64,000 nucleotides of DNA. Source: Desulfosudis oleivorans Hxd3. GTDB lineage: Bacteria; Desulfobacterota; Desulfobacteria; Desulfobacterales; Desulfosudaceae. Location of the stretch: NCBI RefSeq assembly GCF_000018405.1, contig NC_009943.1, positions 1,739,001-1,803,000 of the forward strand, given 5' to 3'. Below the pieces are notes generated by a model. It did no database searches. It worked only from the letters and a program-made list of their open reading frames with translations, and was not told the DNA's origin. Below are positions 44,145 to 54,168 of the stretch, one piece after another. The stretch's first letter is position 1; each line of letters opens with the position of its first letter. A program made the translations under genes and the position numbers.

Positions 44145-45052
44145 GCGACCTGCGCGTGAGTCTCGGCTCCCTGTCGCTGGCCAACCCGGTGATGACCGCG
44201 TCCGGCACCTTTGGCTACGGCCGGGAGTTCTCGGACCTGCTGGATCTGAACCGGCTGGGCGGCATCGTGGTAAAAGGCCTTTCCCTAAAACCGTCCCCCG
44301 GTAATCCGCCGCCCCGGATCGTGGAGACCGCCTGCGGCATGCTCAATGCCATCGGCCTGGAAAACCTGGGCATTGACGCCTTTATCACGGAAAAGCTTCC
44401 CTTTATACAGACCTTGAAGTGCCCCTGTTTTGTCAACATCTACGGCCAGACCGTGGAGGACTACGCGGGACTTGCCGAGCGACTGGATGGCCTGAACGCC
44501 ATTGCCGGTCTTGAAGTCAATATCTCCTGCCCCAATGTCAAGGCCGGGGGTATGGCCTTTGGTGTGGACCCGGCCAGTGCCGCCGAAGTGGTGCGCGCAG
44601 TGCGGGCGAAAACCGGCAAACACCTGATGGTCAAGCTCTCCCCCAACGTCTCCGACATTACCGCCATCGCGCAGAGCGTTGAAAATGCCGGCGCGGATTC
44701 CATCTCCCTGATCAACACCCTGGCCGGCATGGCTGTTGACATTCACACCCGCCGGCCCAAACTGGCCAACATCTTCGGCGGGCTTTCCGGCCCGGCCATC
44801 AAGCCCGTGGCCCTGAAAATGGTGTGGGAAACGGCCCGCAGGGTCAAGGTGCCGGTGGTGGGCATGGGCGGCATCATGACCGCCGAAGACGCCCTGGAGT
44901 TTCTTATCGCCGGGGCCACCGCCGTTCAGGTGGGCACTGCCAATTTTCTCAACCCCGGGGTGACCATGGAAATCCTTGACGGCATCGATGCTTTTCTGGA
45001 CGCCAACCATATTCCGGCGGTGACCGACATCATCGGTACGCTGCAGACATGA
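44141..45052 (+). CDS. pyrD: Dihydroorotate dehydrogenase, class 1B-type catalytic subunit
   Basis: A 303-residue FMN enzyme that oxidises dihydroorotate to orotate in pyrimidine synthesis. Motifs: NPVMTASGTFGYGREF, GLEVNISCPNVKAGG (with the catalytic cysteine of class 1 enzymes in NISCPN), and LSGPAIKPVALKMVW. The cysteine and length point to class 1B, which works with the Fe-S/FAD subunit PyrK; pyrK is not next to it here. The start is GTG at 44141, overlapping the previous stop. Repeat sequence begins 43 bp after the stop. Confidence 0.95.
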   Translation: MSDLRVSLGSLSLANPVMTASGTFGYGREFSDLLDLNRLGGIVVKGLSLKPSPGNPPPRIVETACGMLNAIGLENLGIDAFITEKLPFIQTLKCPCFVNIYGQTVEDYAGLAERLDGLNAIAGLEVNISCPNVKAGGMAFGVDPASAAEVVRAVRAKTGKHLMVKLSPNVSDITAIAQSVENAGADSISLINTLAGMAVDIHTRRPKLANIFGGLSGPAIKPVALKMVWETARRVKVPVVGMGGIMTAEDALEFLIAGATAVQVGTANFLNPGVTMEILDGIDAFLDANHIPAVTDIIGTLQT

Positions 45053-45094
45053 TGGCTGCACCAACCGCCTCACAAATCAATTTTGAAGGAATAT

Positions 45095-46440
45095 GAGTCA
45101 AGAGCAGACTTGACCCCTTTATTTTATTTAAAGGAACGCTTATGAAGACCAATGATTCTATTCTGTTCAGTCCTGCGAAGATTGGTGGCATAACAATTAA
45201 GAACCGGTTTGTCCGTTCCGCAACATATGAGGGCGTCGCCAATGAAGACGGCACTGCAACCGAGGCTTATCTAAAAATCTATGAATTGCTGGCGCGGGGC
45301 CATACCGGGCTGATCATAACAGGCATGATATACACCGACATAAGCGGAAGAAGCTATCCCAAGCAAGCTGGCCTTCACAGTGATAAAACAATTGACCGTC
45401 TTTCGGAAGTGACTGAAGCGGTACACCAGCATGGATCAGCAATATTTGCTCAACTGGTCCATGGCGGGCGTCAGACCGAGGTGGGGGGGATACGCCCCAA
45501 GGCACCTTCTGCCACCAGGCCGGATTTAATATATCAGGTGTATCCCCGTGCCATGCATCACCAGGAAATTGTCGAAGCCGTAAAGGGGTTCGGGGAGGCG
45601 GCAAAAAGAGCCCGGAAAGCAGGGTTTGACGGTATTCAGATTCATGGTGCCCATGGTTATCTTGTAAGCCAATTCCTGTCCCCCTTTTTTAATCGGCGAA
45701 ATGATGAATGGGGCGGCAGCCCGGAAAAAAGATTTCTTTTCCTGAAAAGGGTCTATGAGACGATACGGGAAGCTGTCGGGGCAGACTATCCGGTTATCGT
45801 GAAAATCAATGTGGACGACCATACGCCAAAGCCAGGTTTGTCCATCGAAGAAGTCGCCGGGCATATCAAGCGGCTGGTGGAAATGGGCATTGACGCAGTT
45901 GAGATCTCCTGCGGAACACTTTCCTTTTCCATGTTCAAACAGATCCGCGGCAATGTACCGGTCAGGGCATTTGCAAAAACAAAGCCGTTACCGATACAAC
46001 CGGTTGCCAGGCTTGTGCTGAAAAATGCCTTTCCGGAAAAGCGATTCGCCTTTGAAGAAGCCTATAATCTTTGGGCCTGCCGTTACCTTAAAGCCTCCAT
46101 GGGGAATGTCCCGCTCATTCTTGTCGGCGGGATGCGCAATTTTCAGGGAATGGGAAAAATAGTGGCGGAAGGTGAAGCGGATTTTATATCCATGTGCCGT
46201 CCATTTATCGCGCAGCCCATGCTCGTAAAGCAATGGGAGGAAGGTAATGAAAAGCCGCCTGTGTGCGTCAACTGCAATAACTGCCTGGGCGGCCTGGCAT
46301 TGCAGGAGCCGTTACGTTGCAACCGGAACCGTGTATTTTAAAACAGAAGGGGCCGAAGCCCTTACTTTTTCCGGGCAATGATACGGGCTGTAAAGGGGTC
46401 TAATAAAGGGGTCTAAAGGGGTCAAGTCTGCTCTTGGCTC
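45095..46440. repeat. 26-bp inverted repeats flanking the old-yellow-enzyme gene
   Basis: 45095-45120 begins GAGTCAAGAGCAGACTTGAC and ends CCCTTT. 46415-46440 is its complement with one mismatch. Outside each arm lies a copy of TTTGAAG(G)AATATGA in direct orientation (45082-45096 and 46448-46461). Within the right arm, AAAGGGGTC occurs three times in tandem (46393-46423). Confidence 0.88.
45142..46341 (+). CDS. Old-yellow-enzyme family NADH:flavin oxidoreductase
   Basis: A 399-residue FMN TIM-barrel protein. Motifs: RFVRSATYEGVANEDG, AQLVHGGRQ, GFDGIQIHGAHGYLVSQFLSP and NRRNDEWGGSPEKR. At the end it has C375, C378, C381 and C393 (CVNCNNCLGG then CNRN), the 4Fe-4S motif of the dienoyl-CoA/enoate reductase branch, but the chain stops six residues later without the FAD/NAD domain that normally follows. 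It could reduce alkenes or demethylate with electrons from a separate reductase. The gene is richer in A/T than pyrD before it and lies inside 26-bp inverted repeats, so acquisition is likely. TTAAAGGAACGCTT precedes the ATG. Confidence 0.9.
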   Translation: MKTNDSILFSPAKIGGITIKNRFVRSATYEGVANEDGTATEAYLKIYELLARGHTGLIITGMIYTDISGRSYPKQAGLHSDKTIDRLSEVTEAVHQHGSAIFAQLVHGGRQTEVGGIRPKAPSATRPDLIYQVYPRAMHHQEIVEAVKGFGEAAKRARKAGFDGIQIHGAHGYLVSQFLSPFFNRRNDEWGGSPEKRFLFLKRVYETIREAVGADYPVIVKINVDDHTPKPGLSIEEVAGHIKRLVEMGIDAVEISCGTLSFSMFKQIRGNVPVRAFAKTKPLPIQPVARLVLKNAFPEKRFAFEEAYNLWACRYLKASMGNVPLILVGGMRNFQGMGKIVAEGEADFISMCRPFIAQPMLVKQWEEGNEKPPVCVNCNNCLGGLALQEPLRCNRNRVF

Positions 46441-46538
46441 TTTTGGCTTTGAAGAATATGATAAGCAGATTGGGACGTCCTGGCTTCAACCGCACTGGGG
46501 TGCGGCGCTCCCGGAAAGAGCCAAAGGCTTCTCTAATA

Positions 46539-48680
46539 TTATTTTTCGACCCTTACGGGAAGGCCGGAAAAAGCGGCAGTCCCGCTTAAATCAATTCGTT
46601 TGTTATCCGTGATATCGTTTATGCTGACACCGGGGTTCTTCGCGGCGACGCGCAAAGCCACGCCCGGCCTGTCATGACCCCAACCATGGGGCATGCTGAC
46701 AACGCCCGGCATGACGCGATCGGTGACTTCAGCCTCGATGTTGATGCTGTCGATATTGGATGTTACCCGAACCGTATCACCGGATTTGATGGATCGGTTT
46801 TCCGCGTCTTTTGTATTGATCATAAGTGTGCAGCGGTTTGTACGATTTTTCATGGCAGGGTAGTTGTGAAACCAGGAGTTGTTGGACATCAGGTTGCGCC
46901 GGCTGATCAACAACAGGTCCGGTCCGTCTGCCGATGTTTTTACTGAAACCTGTTCCAGATGATCTTCGATGGTTTTCAATTCGTCTGTCAGGCGTTTCGG
47001 TGCCAGGTCGATTCTTTTGTTTTTTGTAAACAACCGATCCGGAAGGCGTGGCACCAAAGGCCCCAGGTCAATGCCATGCACGGCGCGTTTGACTTTTGAC
47101 AGCGTCAAGCCTGACCCCAGAAAGTTTAACCCCGAACCATGCGGGCCGAAGCGCAACATGAGCCCGAGCAGCCTTTCCGGTTTTGCCAGTTTGAGTGCAA
47201 AACGCAAAAAGGGGTTGGAAACGAATCGCGCGCTCAGCTCGGAAAGAATTTCCCAATTGTGTCGTGTGCCCGGCTGCGGCTGGAACACCGGTTGTGAATA
47301 AGCGGCATAATTACGGGCTCCCGCGAGGTTGATCATGGTCATGAAGTTATGGTGTTCCAGGATGCAGGTCGGCGGCAGAATGATATGGGCATGTCGGGAG
47401 GACTCATGGATGTACCAGTCTATGGCGACCATGAAGTCCAGGTGCGCTAACGCCCTGTCCATCATGCGGCCGTTGGGCGCGCCAAGAACCGGATTGCCTG
47501 CAACGGTAAGCAGTGCCCTGACCCGGCCGTCGCCTTCGGTAAGAATTTCTTCGGCCAAAACCGATGCCGGAAATTCCCCGGCAAAGTCCGGCAATTTGCT
47601 GACCCGCGAATGATGCCGGCCCACATAACCCTTTTCATTCGCCCGGGCCGTAAAGTCAACCAGGTCAAGAGCGGGTGTGGGGAACATAAAACCGCCGGGC
47701 TGATCCATCTTGCCGGTAATGATATTAAACGCCAGTATCAGCCAGGTGGAAAGGGTGCCGTATGCCTGTACGCTGGTTCCCATTCGACCGTAGCAAACCG
47801 CTTTGTCGGCGCGGCAGAAATCTCTTGCCAGTTGGCGGATGTCCTCGGCACTGATACCGGTCATGCCGGCGGCTTTTTCCGGTGTAAAATTTTGGACAGC
47901 GGTTTTAAACGCCTCGATCCCGTCTGAAAAATCGCCCAGCCTGCCCGGTCTGTCCAAACCTTCTTCAAAAACGGTGTTGACCAATGCCGCCAGGAAATAG
48001 ACATCCGTACCCGGACGGATGAACAGGTGTTGATCCGCCAGGGAGGCCGTTCTGGTTAACACCGGATCCACCACCACCACCTTACCCTGTCGCTTCTGAA
48101 TACCCTTGATTCGCCGGGAAGCGCCGGAGGCTGTCATGATGCTGCCACCGGATACAGCCGGGTTGGCGCCGATAATCAGGAAAAAATCGGTCCGGTCGAT
48201 ATCCGGTACCGGGAACATAAGCTGATGTCCGAACATCAGGTAACAGCACATCATCAGGGGTAACTGATCAAGGGAGCTGGAAGAGTATCGATTTTTTGTT
48301 TTCAGGGTTTTTATAAGCATACCGATATAAAGCATGTTGCCATGATAATGAACATTGGGATTACCCATGAAAGTGGCCAGGGCATTGTCGCCGTGATGGC
48401 CGCGGATTTTTTTTATCTGCTGTTCGATTTCATCAAAGGCCTGGTTCCAGCTGATTTGCCGCCATTCGTTTCCGGTTCGCTTGACCGGGTACTTCAGGCG
48501 ATCGGGGTCATTGTAGAGATCTTTAAGGGCGAGGGCTTTGGGGCAGATAAAACCGTTGGAATAGGTATTCTGACGGTCACCACGAATAGACTGGATCTCT
48601 TTGTCGCAGGTAATGATTTCCAGCCCGCATTCTGCTTCGCAGAGCGGACATGTTATGAAACGTGTTACTGTATCAGGCAT
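46539..48680 (-). CDS. Molybdopterin-dependent oxidoreductase with N-terminal 4Fe-4S site
   Basis: A 713-residue member of the DMSO reductase superfamily. The N-terminal 4Fe-4S ligands are C11, C14, C18 and C46. It then has the ISWNQAFDEIEQQI segment, MDQPGGFMFPTP and a C-terminal dinucleotide-binding domain (INTKDAENRSIKSGDTVRV, MPHGWGH). There is no twin-arginine signal, so it is cytoplasmic. The size and domain order are those of cytoplasmic formate dehydrogenase/acetylene hydratase/assimilatory-type enzymes; the substrate cannot be told. No electron-transfer subunit is adjacent. It lies between 16-bp direct repeats and next to the repeat-bounded old-yellow-enzyme gene. GTGAGGAACG precedes the ATG. 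Confidence 0.9.
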   Translation of the reverse strand: MPDTVTRFITCPLCEAECGLEIITCDKEIQSIRGDRQNTYSNGFICPKALALKDLYNDPDRLKYPVKRTGNEWRQISWNQAFDEIEQQIKKIRGHHGDNALATFMGNPNVHYHGNMLYIGMLIKTLKTKNRYSSSSLDQLPLMMCCYLMFGHQLMFPVPDIDRTDFFLIIGANPAVSGGSIMTASGASRRIKGIQKRQGKVVVVDPVLTRTASLADQHLFIRPGTDVYFLAALVNTVFEEGLDRPGRLGDFSDGIEAFKTAVQNFTPEKAAGMTGISAEDIRQLARDFCRADKAVCYGRMGTSVQAYGTLSTWLILAFNIITGKMDQPGGFMFPTPALDLVDFTARANEKGYVGRHHSRVSKLPDFAGEFPASVLAEEILTEGDGRVRALLTVAGNPVLGAPNGRMMDRALAHLDFMVAIDWYIHESSRHAHIILPPTCILEHHNFMTMINLAGARNYAAYSQPVFQPQPGTRHNWEILSELSARFVSNPFLRFALKLAKPERLLGLMLRFGPHGSGLNFLGSGLTLSKVKRAVHGIDLGPLVPRLPDRLFTKNKRIDLAPKRLTDELKTIEDHLEQVSVKTSADGPDLLLISRRNLMSNNSWFHNYPAMKNRTNRCTLMINTKDAENRSIKSGDTVRVTSNIDSINIEAEVTDRVMPGVVSMPHGWGHDRPGVALRVAAKNPGVSINDITDNKRIDLSGTAAFSGLPVRVEK

Positions 48681-48697
48681 CGTTCCTCACGGTTTAA

Positions 48698-48725
48698 TTT
48701 ATATAATAATATAGAGTAATTGCAA
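48698..48725 (-). promoter_or_regulatory. Candidate sigma-70 promoter of the molybdopterin oxidoreductase
   Basis: On the minus strand TTGCAA (48725-48720), a 16-bp spacer and TATAAA (48703-48698) stand in an A/T-rich stretch 18 bp before the start codon. That distance is short for a normal leader. Confidence 0.35.
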
Positions 48726-48764
48726 CCAAGTCAATGGGGTGCGGCGCTCCTCTTGTGCTCACCG

Positions 48765-49214
48765 TTACCCATCCGGCGTCTGTAAACCTTTGATAATCAT
48801 ATAGGTGGCCGTCCCTTTGGCGATCAGGTGGCCGGCTTCATTACGGACATCGACATCGCCCAGTGCCGTCTGCCGTCCCTGGTGAACAATACAGGCTTCG
48901 GCGGTCAGGGCACCGTCCGTGAATGTACTGAGGTAATTGATTTTCATTTCTACAGTGACAAACTTGTCTTCCGGCGCCACAACCCCCAGCAGGGCCATGG
49001 CCACGGCCGAGTCTGCCAGGGAAAAAATGGCCCCGCCATGGGCGATGCCATAGGGATGGGTCAGTTTTTTATCAAACGGCAGATGGAGCTTGGCCCAGCC
49101 TTTTTTGATTTTCAAAAGTTCGATGCCCAGCAACGACCAATAGGGTGAACGGGTGGCCATGGTTTGCCGGATGGCGGCTTCAAATCCAGGCTCAAGATCA
49201 GAATGCGTGTTCAT
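48765..49214 (-). CDS. PaaI-type hotdog thioesterase
   Basis: A 149-residue hotdog-fold thioesterase. The family core is THPYGIAHGGAIFSLADSAV (the HGG and catalytic Asp helix), followed by VTVEMKINYLSTFTDG and ALGDVDVRNEAGHLIAKG. It should hydrolyse aryl- or acyl-CoA. The ATG at 49214 follows AGAGAGGGCCTCTC and begins the family-like region; a longer frame adds 16 residues. It is divergent from the acyl-CoA synthetase gene, and the two may balance CoA ester formation and breakdown. Confidence 0.88.
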   Translation of the reverse strand: MNTHSDLEPGFEAAIRQTMATRSPYWSLLGIELLKIKKGWAKLHLPFDKKLTHPYGIAHGGAIFSLADSAVAMALLGVVAPEDKFVTVEMKINYLSTFTDGALTAEACIVHQGRQTALGDVDVRNEAGHLIAKGTATYMIIKGLQTPDG

Positions 49215-49635
49215 GAGAGGCCCTCTCTGCGTTGTGATGGCGGCTTTTCTTTTCTCCCGCAATCAGCCCGGCTGCCGTGAGGCCGCGAAAGTCAAGCCGG
49301 GACGGTGCCAGGGCATTGTCTGCCCTGGCGGTCATTGCCTGGCGGGGGTTGTTGCCTTCACCGTTGAAAATATCGGATATCCAGGCAAAATGGACATTAT
49401 CTTTTACTATCAGATATGTTCAGAACAGAAAAGACCTTCCTTTGGAAATAGAGGGAAAACAATCAGGGTGGCGGATGCAATCAGAAAACGAGGGGCATAG
49501 AAAATGATTTCATGTTTTATAATGGGATTAAAAGTCGGGTTTGAATTTTCGTTTGGCATGGTTTATATCCATGGTTCAGAAATGATCCTTTTCATCATAA
49601 AGGCGAGTTCTTATCCATCATAAGGAGGAGAACAC
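49215..49635. other. 421-bp divergent region without a recognised gene
   Basis: It separates the thioesterase (minus) and CoA synthetase (plus) genes. An open frame of 76 codons (49277-49507) has no recognisable similarity or good start. An A/T-rich stretch (49500-49620) before the synthetase probably holds its promoter. Confidence 0.5.
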
Positions 49636-51543
49636 ATGACGAATCCGTACGAAGACGCTTTTCAGCGCTCCATTACTGACCCGGAGGGGTTTTGGGGAGA
49701 AATTGCCCAGGATGTCCACTGGTATAAAAGGTGGGACCAGGTGCTGGACAGTTCCAATAAACCGCTTTACCGCTGGTTTGTGGGCGGAAAATTGAATACC
49801 TGTTACAATGCTCTGGATTATCATGTGGATGACCGGGGCAGGGGCGATCGAATCGCGCTGATTTACGACAGCCCGGTGACCCATACCATTCAAAAATATA
49901 CATACGCCGAACTCCGTGACACCGTGGCACGGTTTGCCGGTGTCCTGGCCGGTCGGGGGGTGGGCAAGGGTGACCGGGTGGTGATCTATATGCCCATGAT
50001 TCCCGAGGCGGCCATAGCCATGCTGGCCTGCGCCCGCATCGGTGCCATCCACTCGGTGGTGTTCGGCGGGTTTGCCGCCAAAGAGCTGGCGACCCGGATC
50101 AATGACTCTCAACCAAAGGTCGTTGTTTCCGCGTCGTGCGGGATCGAAGGCCAGCGAATTATCGCTTACAAACCGCTGCTGGACGAAGCCATCCAGATCG
50201 CATCCGCCAAACCGGAGCATTGTATTATTTTTCAGAGACCTCAGCAGGAAGCCGCGCTGGTCCACGGTCGGGATATTGAATGGAGCGCGGCCATGGCAGT
50301 TGCGTCAGCGGTGGATTGTGTCCCGGTGGCGGCCACCGATCCTTTGTATATTCTTTATACCTCCGGTACAACCGGTCAGCCCAAGGGGGTGGTCCGGGAC
50401 AACGGCGGCCATGTGGTGGCCCTTAAGTGGACCATGAAAGCCATCTACGACGTTGATGAAGATGATGTCTGGTGGGCAGCCTCTGATGTTGGCTGGGTTG
50501 TCGGCCATTCTTATATCGTGTACGCCCCGCTTTTCAAGGGCTGCACCACGATATTGTTCGAGGGCAAGCCTGTCGGCACACCGGACGCCGGTGTCTTCTG
50601 GCGGATTATCTCCGAGCACAAGGTCAAGTGCATGTTTACCGCACCTACGGCCTATCGGGCCATCCGCCGGGAGGACCCTGACGCCAGGCTGATAAAAGAC
50701 TACGACCTGTCGCATTTCAAGGCCCTTTTCCTGGCCGGTGAACGGTCTGACCCGGCCACCATTCAATGGTCGGAAAAGCACCTGGGCACGCCGGTCATCG
50801 ACCACTGGTGGCAGACGGAAACCGGCTGGGCCATTGCGGCCAATTGCATGGGGCTTCATCGGTTTCCGGTCAAATATGGCTCTCCCACCAAGGCCGTGCC
50901 GGGCTGGGATGTCCGGGTTCTGGATGATGAAAACAGGGATCTGCCCGCGGGTACGATCGGTGCCCTTTCGGTAAAACTGCCGCTGCCGCCCGGCACCCTG
51001 CCCACCCTGTGGCAGAACGACCAACGGTATATAGAAGCCTACCTCACGGAATATCCGGGATATTACAAAACAGCGGATGCCGGCATGATCGACGAAGACG
51101 GTTATATTTATGTCATGAGCCGTACGGATGATATTATCAACGTGGCCGGTCACCGGTTATCCACCGGGGCCATGGAGGAAGTGCTGGCTGGCCTTCCAGA
51201 CGTGGCCGAATGCGCTGTTCTGGGTGTGGAAGATGCCTTGAAAGGGCAGGTACCGGTTGGGTTTCTGGTTTTAAATGCTGCAACGGTCCGTGAGCCGAAC
51301 GAAATTATTCAGGATGCTGTTCAGCAGGTACGCAAGCAGATCGGTCCGGTGGCCGCGTTTAAGATGGCCGCCATAGTTAAACGCCTGCCCAAGACCCGTT
51401 CCGGAAAGATCCTTCGCGGCACCATTCAGAAGATTGCCGATAACCGGGAATTTTCCATTCCGGCCACCATTGACGACCCTCAGATTATTGACGAGATCAA
51501 GGCATCTCTGGAGGCCCTGGGCCTGGCCGGGAAAAAGAAGTAG
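49636..51543 (+). CDS. prpE: Propionyl-/acetyl-CoA synthetase (PrpE-like)
   Basis: A 635-residue AMP-forming short-chain acyl-CoA synthetase. It has YILYTSGTTGQPKGVVRDNG (P-loop), the substrate-pocket segment WWAASDVGWVVGHSYIVYAPL, IDHWWQTETGWAIAANCMG, and the C-terminal lysine motif in RLPKTRSGKILRGT (acetylation-regulated Lys in PKTRSGK). The VVGHSYIVYAPL pocket and N-terminus (YEDAFQRSITDPEGFW) are closer to PrpE than to Acs; substrate choice between propionate and acetate remains inferred. ATAAGGAGGAGAACAC precedes the ATG. It is monocistronic and convergent with the diguanylate cyclase. Confidence 0.9.
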   Translation: MTNPYEDAFQRSITDPEGFWGEIAQDVHWYKRWDQVLDSSNKPLYRWFVGGKLNTCYNALDYHVDDRGRGDRIALIYDSPVTHTIQKYTYAELRDTVARFAGVLAGRGVGKGDRVVIYMPMIPEAAIAMLACARIGAIHSVVFGGFAAKELATRINDSQPKVVVSASCGIEGQRIIAYKPLLDEAIQIASAKPEHCIIFQRPQQEAALVHGRDIEWSAAMAVASAVDCVPVAATDPLYILYTSGTTGQPKGVVRDNGGHVVALKWTMKAIYDVDEDDVWWAASDVGWVVGHSYIVYAPLFKGCTTILFEGKPVGTPDAGVFWRIISEHKVKCMFTAPTAYRAIRREDPDARLIKDYDLSHFKALFLAGERSDPATIQWSEKHLGTPVIDHWWQTETGWAIAANCMGLHRFPVKYGSPTKAVPGWDVRVLDDENRDLPAGTIGALSVKLPLPPGTLPTLWQNDQRYIEAYLTEYPGYYKTADAGMIDEDGYIYVMSRTDDIINVAGHRLSTGAMEEVLAGLPDVAECAVLGVEDALKGQVPVGFLVLNAATVREPNEIIQDAVQQVRKQIGPVAAFKMAAIVKRLPKTRSGKILRGTIQKIADNREFSIPATIDDPQIIDEIKASLEALGLAGKKK

Positions 51544-51775
51544 AATCAGCCGGTGCGGTACCGATAGCCACGCCGAAACGCCCAACAATTTTTATGAAGA
51601 TGCGTTTGAAAAATGAAGAAAATTTCATTACCCTGATGCCGTTTTGCAAGATCAAAAAGGATCGGCTGGATCGTCAGCTGGGTTGGATCGTGGATCGGGG
51701 CCGGACCAAAGCAACAACATGAAACTAAAAAGATAAAAAGCCTGAAAACCGTGTTAAATACGGGGAGCACCGGCA

Positions 51776-52849
51776 TTAATCGGTCCCCGGCTCTTTGAAA
51801 ACGGCCCGGTCCTTGCCGTTTTCCTTGGCTTCATAAAGCGCGGCATCCGCCCTTGCAAGCAGCGCATCCGGGGATTCGCCCGGCTGGTAGGCGGCAATAC
51901 CGATTGATGTGGTGATTCTCAAATCCGGGGAAATATCCGGCAGGCAAATATTCCGTGTGGCGGCCAGCAGCCGTTGGACACCACTTGCCCTGCTGTCCAG
52001 GCACTGGAAGTTGGAAAACACCACCATAAACTCCTCCCCACCATACCGTCCCACATAATCCGTGGCCCGTGTATTGTCTTTCAAGGCCCGGGCAAAGGAC
52101 TGGAGCACCGCATCGCCGGCCTGATGACCGTAAGTGTCATTCATCTGCTTAAAATCGTCCAGGTCAAGCATGCACAGCGAAAACGGGGTACCCGCCCGGT
52201 CTGAAAAGGCTTTTTCCCTGCCCAGCACCTCGAAAATCTCTCTTCTGCTCAACACCCCGGTCAGGGCGTCATGAGTGGCAAGACGGGTGATGTGCCGCCG
52301 GAGCTTGGAGATGTAGTTGGCCATATAGGAAACCCAGACCAGGGCCATCATCAATATGACCCACCGCATGACCTCCAGCTGGGGATCAACCGCCCCGGGA
52401 TCCGAAGAATGCAGCAACGCCATGGCCCCGGCATAAAGCCCGCCGGTTATGCCCGTAAGTACCAGCAAATCCTTCAGCCGGAGCCGGAAGGTGCCGAACA
52501 TGAATGCCAGGATATAAAGAACCGAGGCGGTCCCGCGTATCCGGTCGACCATGTAGTAGGCAATAAGTGTGATAAACATAATGCCGCATAAAATCTGGAA
52601 CAGTGTGAGGCTGGGGTCACGGAACCGTTCATTAATGCCTTTATACATCATCGTCAGTATGATGAGGTAGATACCCGACACCCCCGTCGTGATGATCAAA
52701 ATAACGCTGAGTTCCAGATCCCGGGCATATCCTAAATGAACACCCAGGTAACATCCCGCACCGATGAACAGATAACTGGCAACAGCCATCAACGTCCGGC
52801 GTATTCGCAATGCCTGCCTGGTATCACCTTTTTGGAAAACGCTGATCAT
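51776..52849 (-). CDS. Membrane-anchored diguanylate cyclase (GGDEF)
   Basis: A 357-residue protein with six hydrophobic segments in residues 1-185 and a C-terminal GGDEF domain (about 190-350). The active site is RYGGEEFMVVF, the metal and nucleotide site is CMLDLDDFKQMNDTYGHQAGD, and RATD five residues before GGEEF is a complete inhibitory I-site. It makes cyclic di-GMP and is probably product-inhibited. The membrane part has no recognised sensor name; a MASE-like module is possible. No EAL domain. It is convergent with the CoA synthetase gene. Confidence 0.93.
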   Translation of the reverse strand: MISVFQKGDTRQALRIRRTLMAVASYLFIGAGCYLGVHLGYARDLELSVILIITTGVSGIYLIILTMMYKGINERFRDPSLTLFQILCGIMFITLIAYYMVDRIRGTASVLYILAFMFGTFRLRLKDLLVLTGITGGLYAGAMALLHSSDPGAVDPQLEVMRWVILMMALVWVSYMANYISKLRRHITRLATHDALTGVLSRREIFEVLGREKAFSDRAGTPFSLCMLDLDDFKQMNDTYGHQAGDAVLQSFARALKDNTRATDYVGRYGGEEFMVVFSNFQCLDSRASGVQRLLAATRNICLPDISPDLRITTSIGIAAYQPGESPDALLARADAALYEAKENGKDRAVFKEPGTD

Positions 52850-53142
52850 AATTTTATTCCCGGACTTTGATAAAAAATTAAAAAATCTGCCTGCGTGAAA
52901 ACCGGTACCTGTAAAATTACTGTATTTTAAAAACGCAAAACAATCCAGCAGAAGTCAAAAAAGGGCGCTCGGCAACGACCGTCCGCCTTCGTCCGGTACC
53001 GGCCGGGCCCTGGCCCCCGGGGGAATTCAGGGCCGCTCTGTTTTTTCTGTTAACGCGGTGCCTGTTTTTTTGTCACGGACGGGTTTCGGTTTTGATCCCT
53101 TCATCGATTGCGATTTGGATAGGGCTGTGGGTATGAGACGGT
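52850..53142. other. 293-bp intergenic region, nothing recognised
   Basis: It lies between two minus-strand genes. It has a GC-rich, partly palindromic stretch (CCGGGCCCTGGCCCCCGGG, 53006-53024) that could act as a hairpin, but there is no gene or clear terminator. Confidence 0.4.
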
Positions 53143-54168
53143 TTATTGGCAGATGGTTTGATCCTCCGCCAGTGCCGGGTCTTCCAGGATGCGAATCGAC
53201 TTCAGGTCAAACCTCTTTTTCAGGCGGGCAAGGTTGGCGTTTTTCTGGCCCCGCAGAGCAGAAGCCTGGCGGGGATGAATTGCCAGTGTCAGGTCGGCGC
53301 CGGGAGAGATCTGCCGGTCGGCGATAAGAGACGAAACCCGGTCAAACAGGATTTCCGAGCGCACCAGGTGGCCAAAGGCCGGGTGATAGGGGCCGGCCAG
53401 CAGGGTGGCACTGTCGGCCAGTTCTTCGGAAGGCTGAAGCCCCATGCGGATCACGGTGATCCCCTGACTTTCCAGTGTCAGGCACATGGTCGTGGCAACG
53501 GCCACGGCCGCATCAAGGGTCTGGGGCATATATTCTCCCTGCCGGTAGTGCCGGGCCAGGGGGCTTCCCGTGATCACCAGGGTGGGGTAAATTCTGGCAA
53601 AATCAGGTTTAAGGACCGCCACCTTTTTGGCGGTTTCAATGGAAACCCGGCCGTCGTCACCGGGAAGCCCGGTCATGAGCTGTGCCCCGGTTTCGTATCC
53701 GGCCTGCTTTAAAAGCAGAAGGGCGGCTGTGGACTGTTCGGCGGTGTGGCCCCGCCTTGCCTTTTCAAGCACCCGGTCATCCATGGACTGCACCCCCACC
53801 TCGACCGTGGTCACCGGATAGTCTTTCAGCAGGTCAAGGTTTTTTTGGGTGATGGTGTCGGGCCGGGTGGAAAAACGGATAGCCTGGACCAGGCCCTGAT
53901 CGACAAAAGCAGAAGCCGCATGGAGCATCTGCGTAAGGGATTCTCTTTCAAGACCGAGAAAGTTGCCCCCGTAAAACGCGATCTGCGCATGGCCCCGGTT
54001 GTCGCCCCTGTATTGCAGATAACGGTGTACATGGTCGTGCAGATCGTCGGCGGTCAGCGATGCTTTTTGTCCGGTGATGGCGTCCTGGTCGCAGAACACG
54101 CACCGGTGGGGGCATCCTGCGTGGGGGAGAAAAACCGGAACAATAAAGGGCCGCTGCCCTGTGGTCAT
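53143..54168 (-). CDS. Elp3-like radical SAM protein
   Basis: A 341-residue radical SAM protein. The cluster motif is CPHRCVFCDQ at about residues 19-28 (CxxxCxxC, with an aromatic-Cys-Asp ending). IAFYGGNFLGL, STRPDTITQKNLDLL and TVEVGVQSMDDRVLEKARRGHT are the typical Elp3/YhcC/HemN-like core. There is no acetyltransferase domain, so it is a bacterial short form of unknown substrate. Its start overlaps the rnc stop by four bases, so it is translationally coupled. Genes of this type often follow rnc in Desulfobacterota; that is recollection, not checked. Confidence 0.87.
   Translation of the reverse strand: MTTGQRPFIVPVFLPHAGCPHRCVFCDQDAITGQKASLTADDLHDHVHRYLQYRGDNRGHAQIAFYGGNFLGLERESLTQMLHAASAFVDQGLVQAIRFSTRPDTITQKNLDLLKDYPVTTVEVGVQSMDDRVLEKARRGHTAEQSTAALLLLKQAGYETGAQLMTGLPGDDGRVSIETAKKVAVLKPDFARIYPTLVITGSPLARHYRQGEYMPQTLDAAVAVATTMCLTLESQGITVIRMGLQPSEELADSATLLAGPYHPAFGHLVRSEILFDRVSSLIADRQISPGADLTLAIHPRQASALRGQKNANLARLKKRFDLKSIRILEDPALAEDQTICQ

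Follow-up and report, generated by a model that had tools for sequence, protein, structure and literature searches.

The window, a 64,000-nucleotide stretch of Desulfosudis oleivorans Hxd3 DNA (NC_009943.1, positions 1,739,001 to 1,803,000), contains an old-yellow-enzyme (OYE) gene between pyrD and a molybdopterin oxidoreductase gene. Its product belongs to the NADH:flavin oxidoreductase family (PF00724, E = 1e-67), and, among solved structures, its nearest sequence relatives are NADPH dehydrogenases, 3gr7 for example. The gene is bracketed by two inverted arms with short direct repeats outside them; the features, in window positions, are as follows.

45082-45096, forward strand: left outer repeat, TTTGAAGGAATATGA, a putative dimer-loop remnant
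45095-45120, reverse strand: left 26-bp arm, a TIRYT-family terminal repeat with its GGGG end towards the OYE gene
45142-46341, forward strand: OYE gene, intact, encoding a 399-aa flavin oxidoreductase (PF00724)
46348-46363, forward strand: terminator-like hairpin 3' of the OYE gene, by consensus match only
46391-46417, forward strand: TAAAGGGGTC and TAATAAAGGGGTC, two partial iterations of the repeat end 5' of the full right arm
46415-46440, forward strand: right 26-bp arm, a TIRYT-family terminal repeat with its GGGG end towards the OYE gene
46448-46461, forward strand: right outer repeat, TTTGAAGAATATGA, a putative dimer-loop remnant

Comparison of 45095-45120 with 46415-46440 confirmed the 26-bp arms of the preliminary description as reverse complements with a single mismatch. 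Their 19-mer core occurs twice in the window (0.01 expected from shuffled sequence), and the pair, which is divergent, measures 1336 bp overall. The outer repeats likewise lie in direct orientation as had been described, the left one overlapping its arm by two bases; the right one begins seven bases past its arm. They are unequal in length (15 and 14 bases) and placed asymmetrically relative to the arms, rather than being equal copies directly outside both ends as in a target duplication. An alignment at least equal to that of the outer-repeat pair was obtained in 0.4% of 20,000 random comparisons of 30 × 40 bases sampled from the window, and the outer direct repeat is probably real, though the evidence is not overwhelming. 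Apart from the left copy, which is one base longer, the right outer 14-mer has one exact occurrence and four with one mismatch in the genome. Beside the right arm, a frame ending in repeat-coded residues is open as judged by eye and may be a remnant of a transposase 3' end.

Both arms represent the terminal repeat that goes with a TIRYT-type family of Y1 (HUH) transposases with a DnaA-like tail. When up to three mismatches are allowed, the 19-mer has five copies in the source genome, a single contig of 3.94 Mb: two at the OYE gene and three around a single transposase gene at 2266264-2267331, 0.48 Mb from the OYE block. The preliminary description had proposed to look for further copies genome-wide, and all five cores lie at these two places, with no random single copies; at this threshold neither lone cores nor whole dimers were found elsewhere in the genome. 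The resident gene, one of four Y1_Tnp matches in the genome, has an open frame of 322 aa with a Y1_Tnp domain (1e-14) and a Bac_DnaA_C domain (C-terminal helix-turn-helix; 9.9e-11), both above cut-off, and scores 74.3 bits against the NCBIfam model REP_Tyr_transpos, under its cut-off of 80. The kinship with REP-type transposases that had been suggested at the outset is thus supported at the level of the Y1/HUH family, and an intact transposase with matching ends is present in the same genome. This gene lies between terminal inverted repeats whose GGGG ends point outward, as in a TIRtron, whereas those at the OYE gene point inward. All three copies at the resident element carry the variant TCC and both copies at the OYE gene carry TCT, so the OYE arms were probably not derived from the present copy of the resident element. 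No description of the OYE-arm repeat was found in the open-access library searched, by element type and by repeat letters. Two more Y1 transposase genes of this genome (L012 893-1998 and L013 886-1982) have inverted repeats of 32 and 30 bases that are of a different type, around GGGGACGTCC and GGGGACGCCC.

Across the order, the exact 18-mer occurs in 39 of the 291 genomes searched, at 113 sites in total. The 74 loci around these sites, together with the resident locus and the window, yielded 136 sites at up to three mismatches. Among neighbours no more than 200 bp apart, 18 pairs were convergent, 16 tandem and none divergent; from 200 to 2000 bp the numbers were 9, 8 and 4, and from 2 to 6 kb there were 2 tandem and 3 divergent pairs. 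Within 2 kb, opposite-strand neighbours were therefore convergent 27 times and divergent 4 times, the OYE pair being one of the 4; the other three are gaps separating two adjacent dimers (L164, L167) or, in L111, a half dimer from a whole one. The convergent pairs measured 62-64 bp (12 pairs), 81-161 bp (6), 645 and 682 bp (2) and 1033-1040 bp (7), with a transposase match inside all seven of the longest and a transposase piece inside both of intermediate length. Shared cargo was sought in the inward-facing intervals of L111, L134, L138, L164 and L167, and their open reading frames appeared unrelated by eye.

Of the 18 convergent pairs of up to 200 bp, 12 are complete 62-64-bp dimers, all from genomes of the order other than the source genome. 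These short dimers are near-perfect palindromes with a short central loop; that of L119 folds to 25 pairs with a 13-base loop. If the flanks of the OYE gene are joined at their common TTTGAAG(G)AATATGA, 65 bases result, which fold into a single hairpin (23 pairs, 19-base loop; z = -8.6) and align with dimers elsewhere over positions 1-65 at up to 86% identity. Given this dimer length, alignment and fold, the outer direct repeat is best read as a loop common to two half dimers rather than as a target duplication. Its unequal length, its overlap with one arm and its gap to the other are what two broken copies would be expected to show and would be unusual in a target duplication. The exact joined loop was absent as a whole from the 291 genomes, in which the best full-length match was the one at 86%. 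A search for degenerate remains of the outer arms that are missing detected none (right, p = 0.10; left, p = 0.80), and we do not claim that any persist.

Truncated dimers occur elsewhere (L106, L111, L124), as do dimers close together in the same orientation, two whole ones in L164 and in L167 and a half beside a whole one in L111. The two in L164 (2555-2704 and 4229-4378) are near-identical 150-bp dimers, both between ggaat and atgaa, and flank a 429-aa open reading frame that is methyltransferase-like by eye. Tandem iteration of the repeat ends with a few flanking bases was seen at L010 2280-2340, at L109, L114, L120, L137 and L138 and at 46391-46417 of the window; it may reflect end processing. 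For a simulation of neighbour distances, the sites were merged into 85 elements in 39 genomes. Seven neighbour pairs lay within 3 kb, the OYE pair included, against 0.23 expected, and none of 5000 simulations reached seven; the count is based on positions transcribed by hand, our own merging rule, uniform placement and draft contigs. Three of the seven pairs come from complicated loci, two with transposase pieces (G170, G015) and one a same-strand pair 1034 bp apart (G171); the L167 pair was left out because of a mismatch in its second dimer. With truncated dimers elsewhere and copies clustering within 3 kb, two close copies at the OYE gene are not surprising.

The OYE gene itself had been described as differing in base usage from pyrD before it. 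Its GC3 of 0.53 is indeed the second lowest among 43 window genes that we picked (mean 0.70), but the four genes 3' of it (46539-52849) are likewise under the mean, at 0.61-0.67, and the shift therefore extends beyond the block. Class-wide, an OYE match at E ≤ 1e-110 was obtained in 7 of 389 genomes: the source genome, a group of five with 54-64% identity and a single one with 47%. The repeat, sought at up to four mismatches in the fetched flanks of OYE relatives, was found at none of the 5 loci at 54-64% identity and none of the 11 at about 39-46%, several of these flanks being cut by contig ends (L068, L069, L072 and L208 extend less than 1 kb on one side). As none of these 16 loci is bracketed, OYE was rejected as a conserved cargo. 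None of 23 other window genes was found in the fetched stretches of the five closer relatives, and a contig scan for named close OYE relatives gave six loci at 28-38% identity, none of them useful.

About 8 kb (45053-53142), with the OYE, molybdopterin oxidoreductase, thioesterase, acyl-CoA synthetase and GGDEF genes, separates pyrD from a radical-SAM gene at 53143-54168. In one genome of the same family (G001), pyrD is directly followed by a convergent homolog of the latter, at the end of a short contig; in G002, pyrD is followed by other genes. The stretch from 45 to 53 kb therefore varies between genera, with OYE as one part of it. That the whole stretch is a single foreign island was considered and rejected: within the same family, a different genus has a 70% relative of the molybdopterin gene, at another place. 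This gene (46539-48680) is bracketed by GGGGTGCGGCGCTCC, a direct repeat of 15 bases at 46497-46511 and 48736-48750.

We consider it likely that the repeats on either side of the OYE gene are truncated hairpin dimers, two REPIN-like miniature elements of the TIRYT-type Y1 transposase family. Judging from the family, a Y1 transposase working on single-stranded hairpins would have spread two dimers, and each copy would have retained only its gene-facing half, the terminal repeat and part of the loop; long palindromes are presumably prone to arm loss. Both copies would thus once have been whole dimers of one subfamily that lost their outer halves, and the result would be an inside-out inverted repeat with loop sequence as the short direct repeat outside it. 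Passages of the REPIN paper (PMC3116915) argue that single REPs are remnants of dimers. Support comes from the same core at an intact Y1 transposase together with the inward orientation at the OYE gene, from the complete dimers of other genomes with the matching length, alignment and fold of the joined OYE flanks, and from the truncated and paired dimers elsewhere with their excess of close neighbours. Against it stand the source genome, with neither a whole dimer nor a lone copy elsewhere, the joined loop with its best match of 86%, the outer arms missing without a detectable remnant, the atypical GC3 of the OYE gene and the gene-facing flanks, which fit one insertion better than two.

The flanks of complete dimers are self-complementary across the insertion point more than expected (permutation p = 0.0008, 18 dimers), and those facing the OYE gene are complementary over 4 bases, or 6 counting the iterated end. 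Complementary runs of at least 4 bases occurred in 3 of the 18 true pairs; among the mixed pairs, which are not independent, 9 of 306 had them. This hints, with a preference of about six-fold, that the two arms are the sides of a single insertion. Such a history is in our judgment unlikely: a circle or tandem array with the OYE gene and a single dimer would have been opened in the dimer loop and inserted between pyrD and the molybdopterin gene, leaving 14 loop bases at each end. It would account for the near-identity of the joined flanks to one dimer length (65 against 62-64 bases), and the low GC3 and the lack of conserved neighbours around OYE would also suit it; however, no OYE circle or tandem array was seen, OYE is single copy in its genome at E ≤ 1e-80, and two dimers at AT-rich sites of like preference would give the same look. 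We regard as quite doubtful a process in which dimers of a domesticated-type HUH transposase allow a gene next to them to form a circle and return to the chromosome via the dimer loop. Inside-out repeats with a short loop duplication may then be the scar of a gene circle opened in a dimer, and a further trace could lie in the overabundance of family copies at distances of 1-3 kb.

That the arms have been retained as transcript signals, as terminators or mRNA end hairpins for pyrD and OYE, strikes us as very unlikely. The left arm forms a hairpin with a 6-bp stem, both arms fold as single-stranded DNA (left, z = -4.6; right, z = -2.2), and the interval 44900-46700 has 7 terminator-like hits where shuffled sequence gives 2.2; the left arm, on either strand, accounts for two of the 7. 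The right arm is not among these hits, though, and the hairpin at 46348-46363 already serves as a terminator-like candidate 3' of OYE; there is no Rfam match, and the OYE relatives have no repeats in their fetched flanks. Least probable of the readings, and highly improbable, is the one closest to the preliminary description, in which the block was read as an insertion that had duplicated its target. OYE would here be the cargo of a transposon-like unit that the resident Y1 transposase moves in trans, and the target duplication would span about 14 bases. An intact transposase with similar ends in the same genome, inverted arms around one gene with a direct repeat outside them, and the GC3 of OYE all invite it. 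Counting against it are the ends, which are inside out relative to the resident element and of the other variant, the unequal and asymmetric direct repeats, which fit a dimer loop, and the OYE relatives, unbracketed in the flanks fetched; moreover, Y1/HUH transposases are not known to make a target duplication.

Under the truncated-dimer reading, the OYE gene is probably not carried by the element, and is best read as a loner gene in a lineage-specific stretch 3' of pyrD, beside repeat debris and without a new mobile unit. The bracket is best explained as real repeats of a known transposase-family kind, unusual in being arranged inside out. It shows that inverted repeats on both sides of a gene do not by themselves make a mobile unit; what decides is how they are oriented relative to the autonomous element. 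Small hints on how TIRYT-type repeats spread come from the clustering of copies and from the self-complementarity at the points where dimers are inserted.

In a composite transposon, two related copies of an element lie on either side of a gene. The OYE locus is alike in its two related copies flanking a gene and differs in that both are truncated on the outside and show no sign of joint movement with the gene. The 62-64-bp dimers resemble REPINs as characterised in parts of Bertels and Rainey (2011; PMC3116915), with two inverted repeats and a short spacer forming one hairpin, but the family of the OYE arms lacks the GTAG motif and is present in few copies in each genome. As they stand, the OYE arms differ further in being 1.3 kb apart and inside out, and do not form a convergent, short-spaced pair with one hairpin, whereas the OYE flanks, if joined at the outer repeat, would form one of 65 bases. 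Closest are the TIRtrons, the elements of the TIRYT transposases (Di Nocera et al. 2013, PMC3733652), which are placed mostly in subclass 2.1 of TnpA-Y1 in portions of Quentin et al. (2018; PMC6006769). The OYE block differs from what these sources describe in that the OYE gene stands alone between its arms, with no transposase gene, and in that the repeats point inward. The resident transposase shares the Y1 domain, the DnaA-like tail and inverted repeats starting with GGGG. In the repeat, GGGGTCAA is a partial match to the motif GGGGWSAS, fitting 7 of its 8 letters. According to sections of the TIRtron paper (PMC3733652), TIRYT repeats also occur as singles, dimers and groups.
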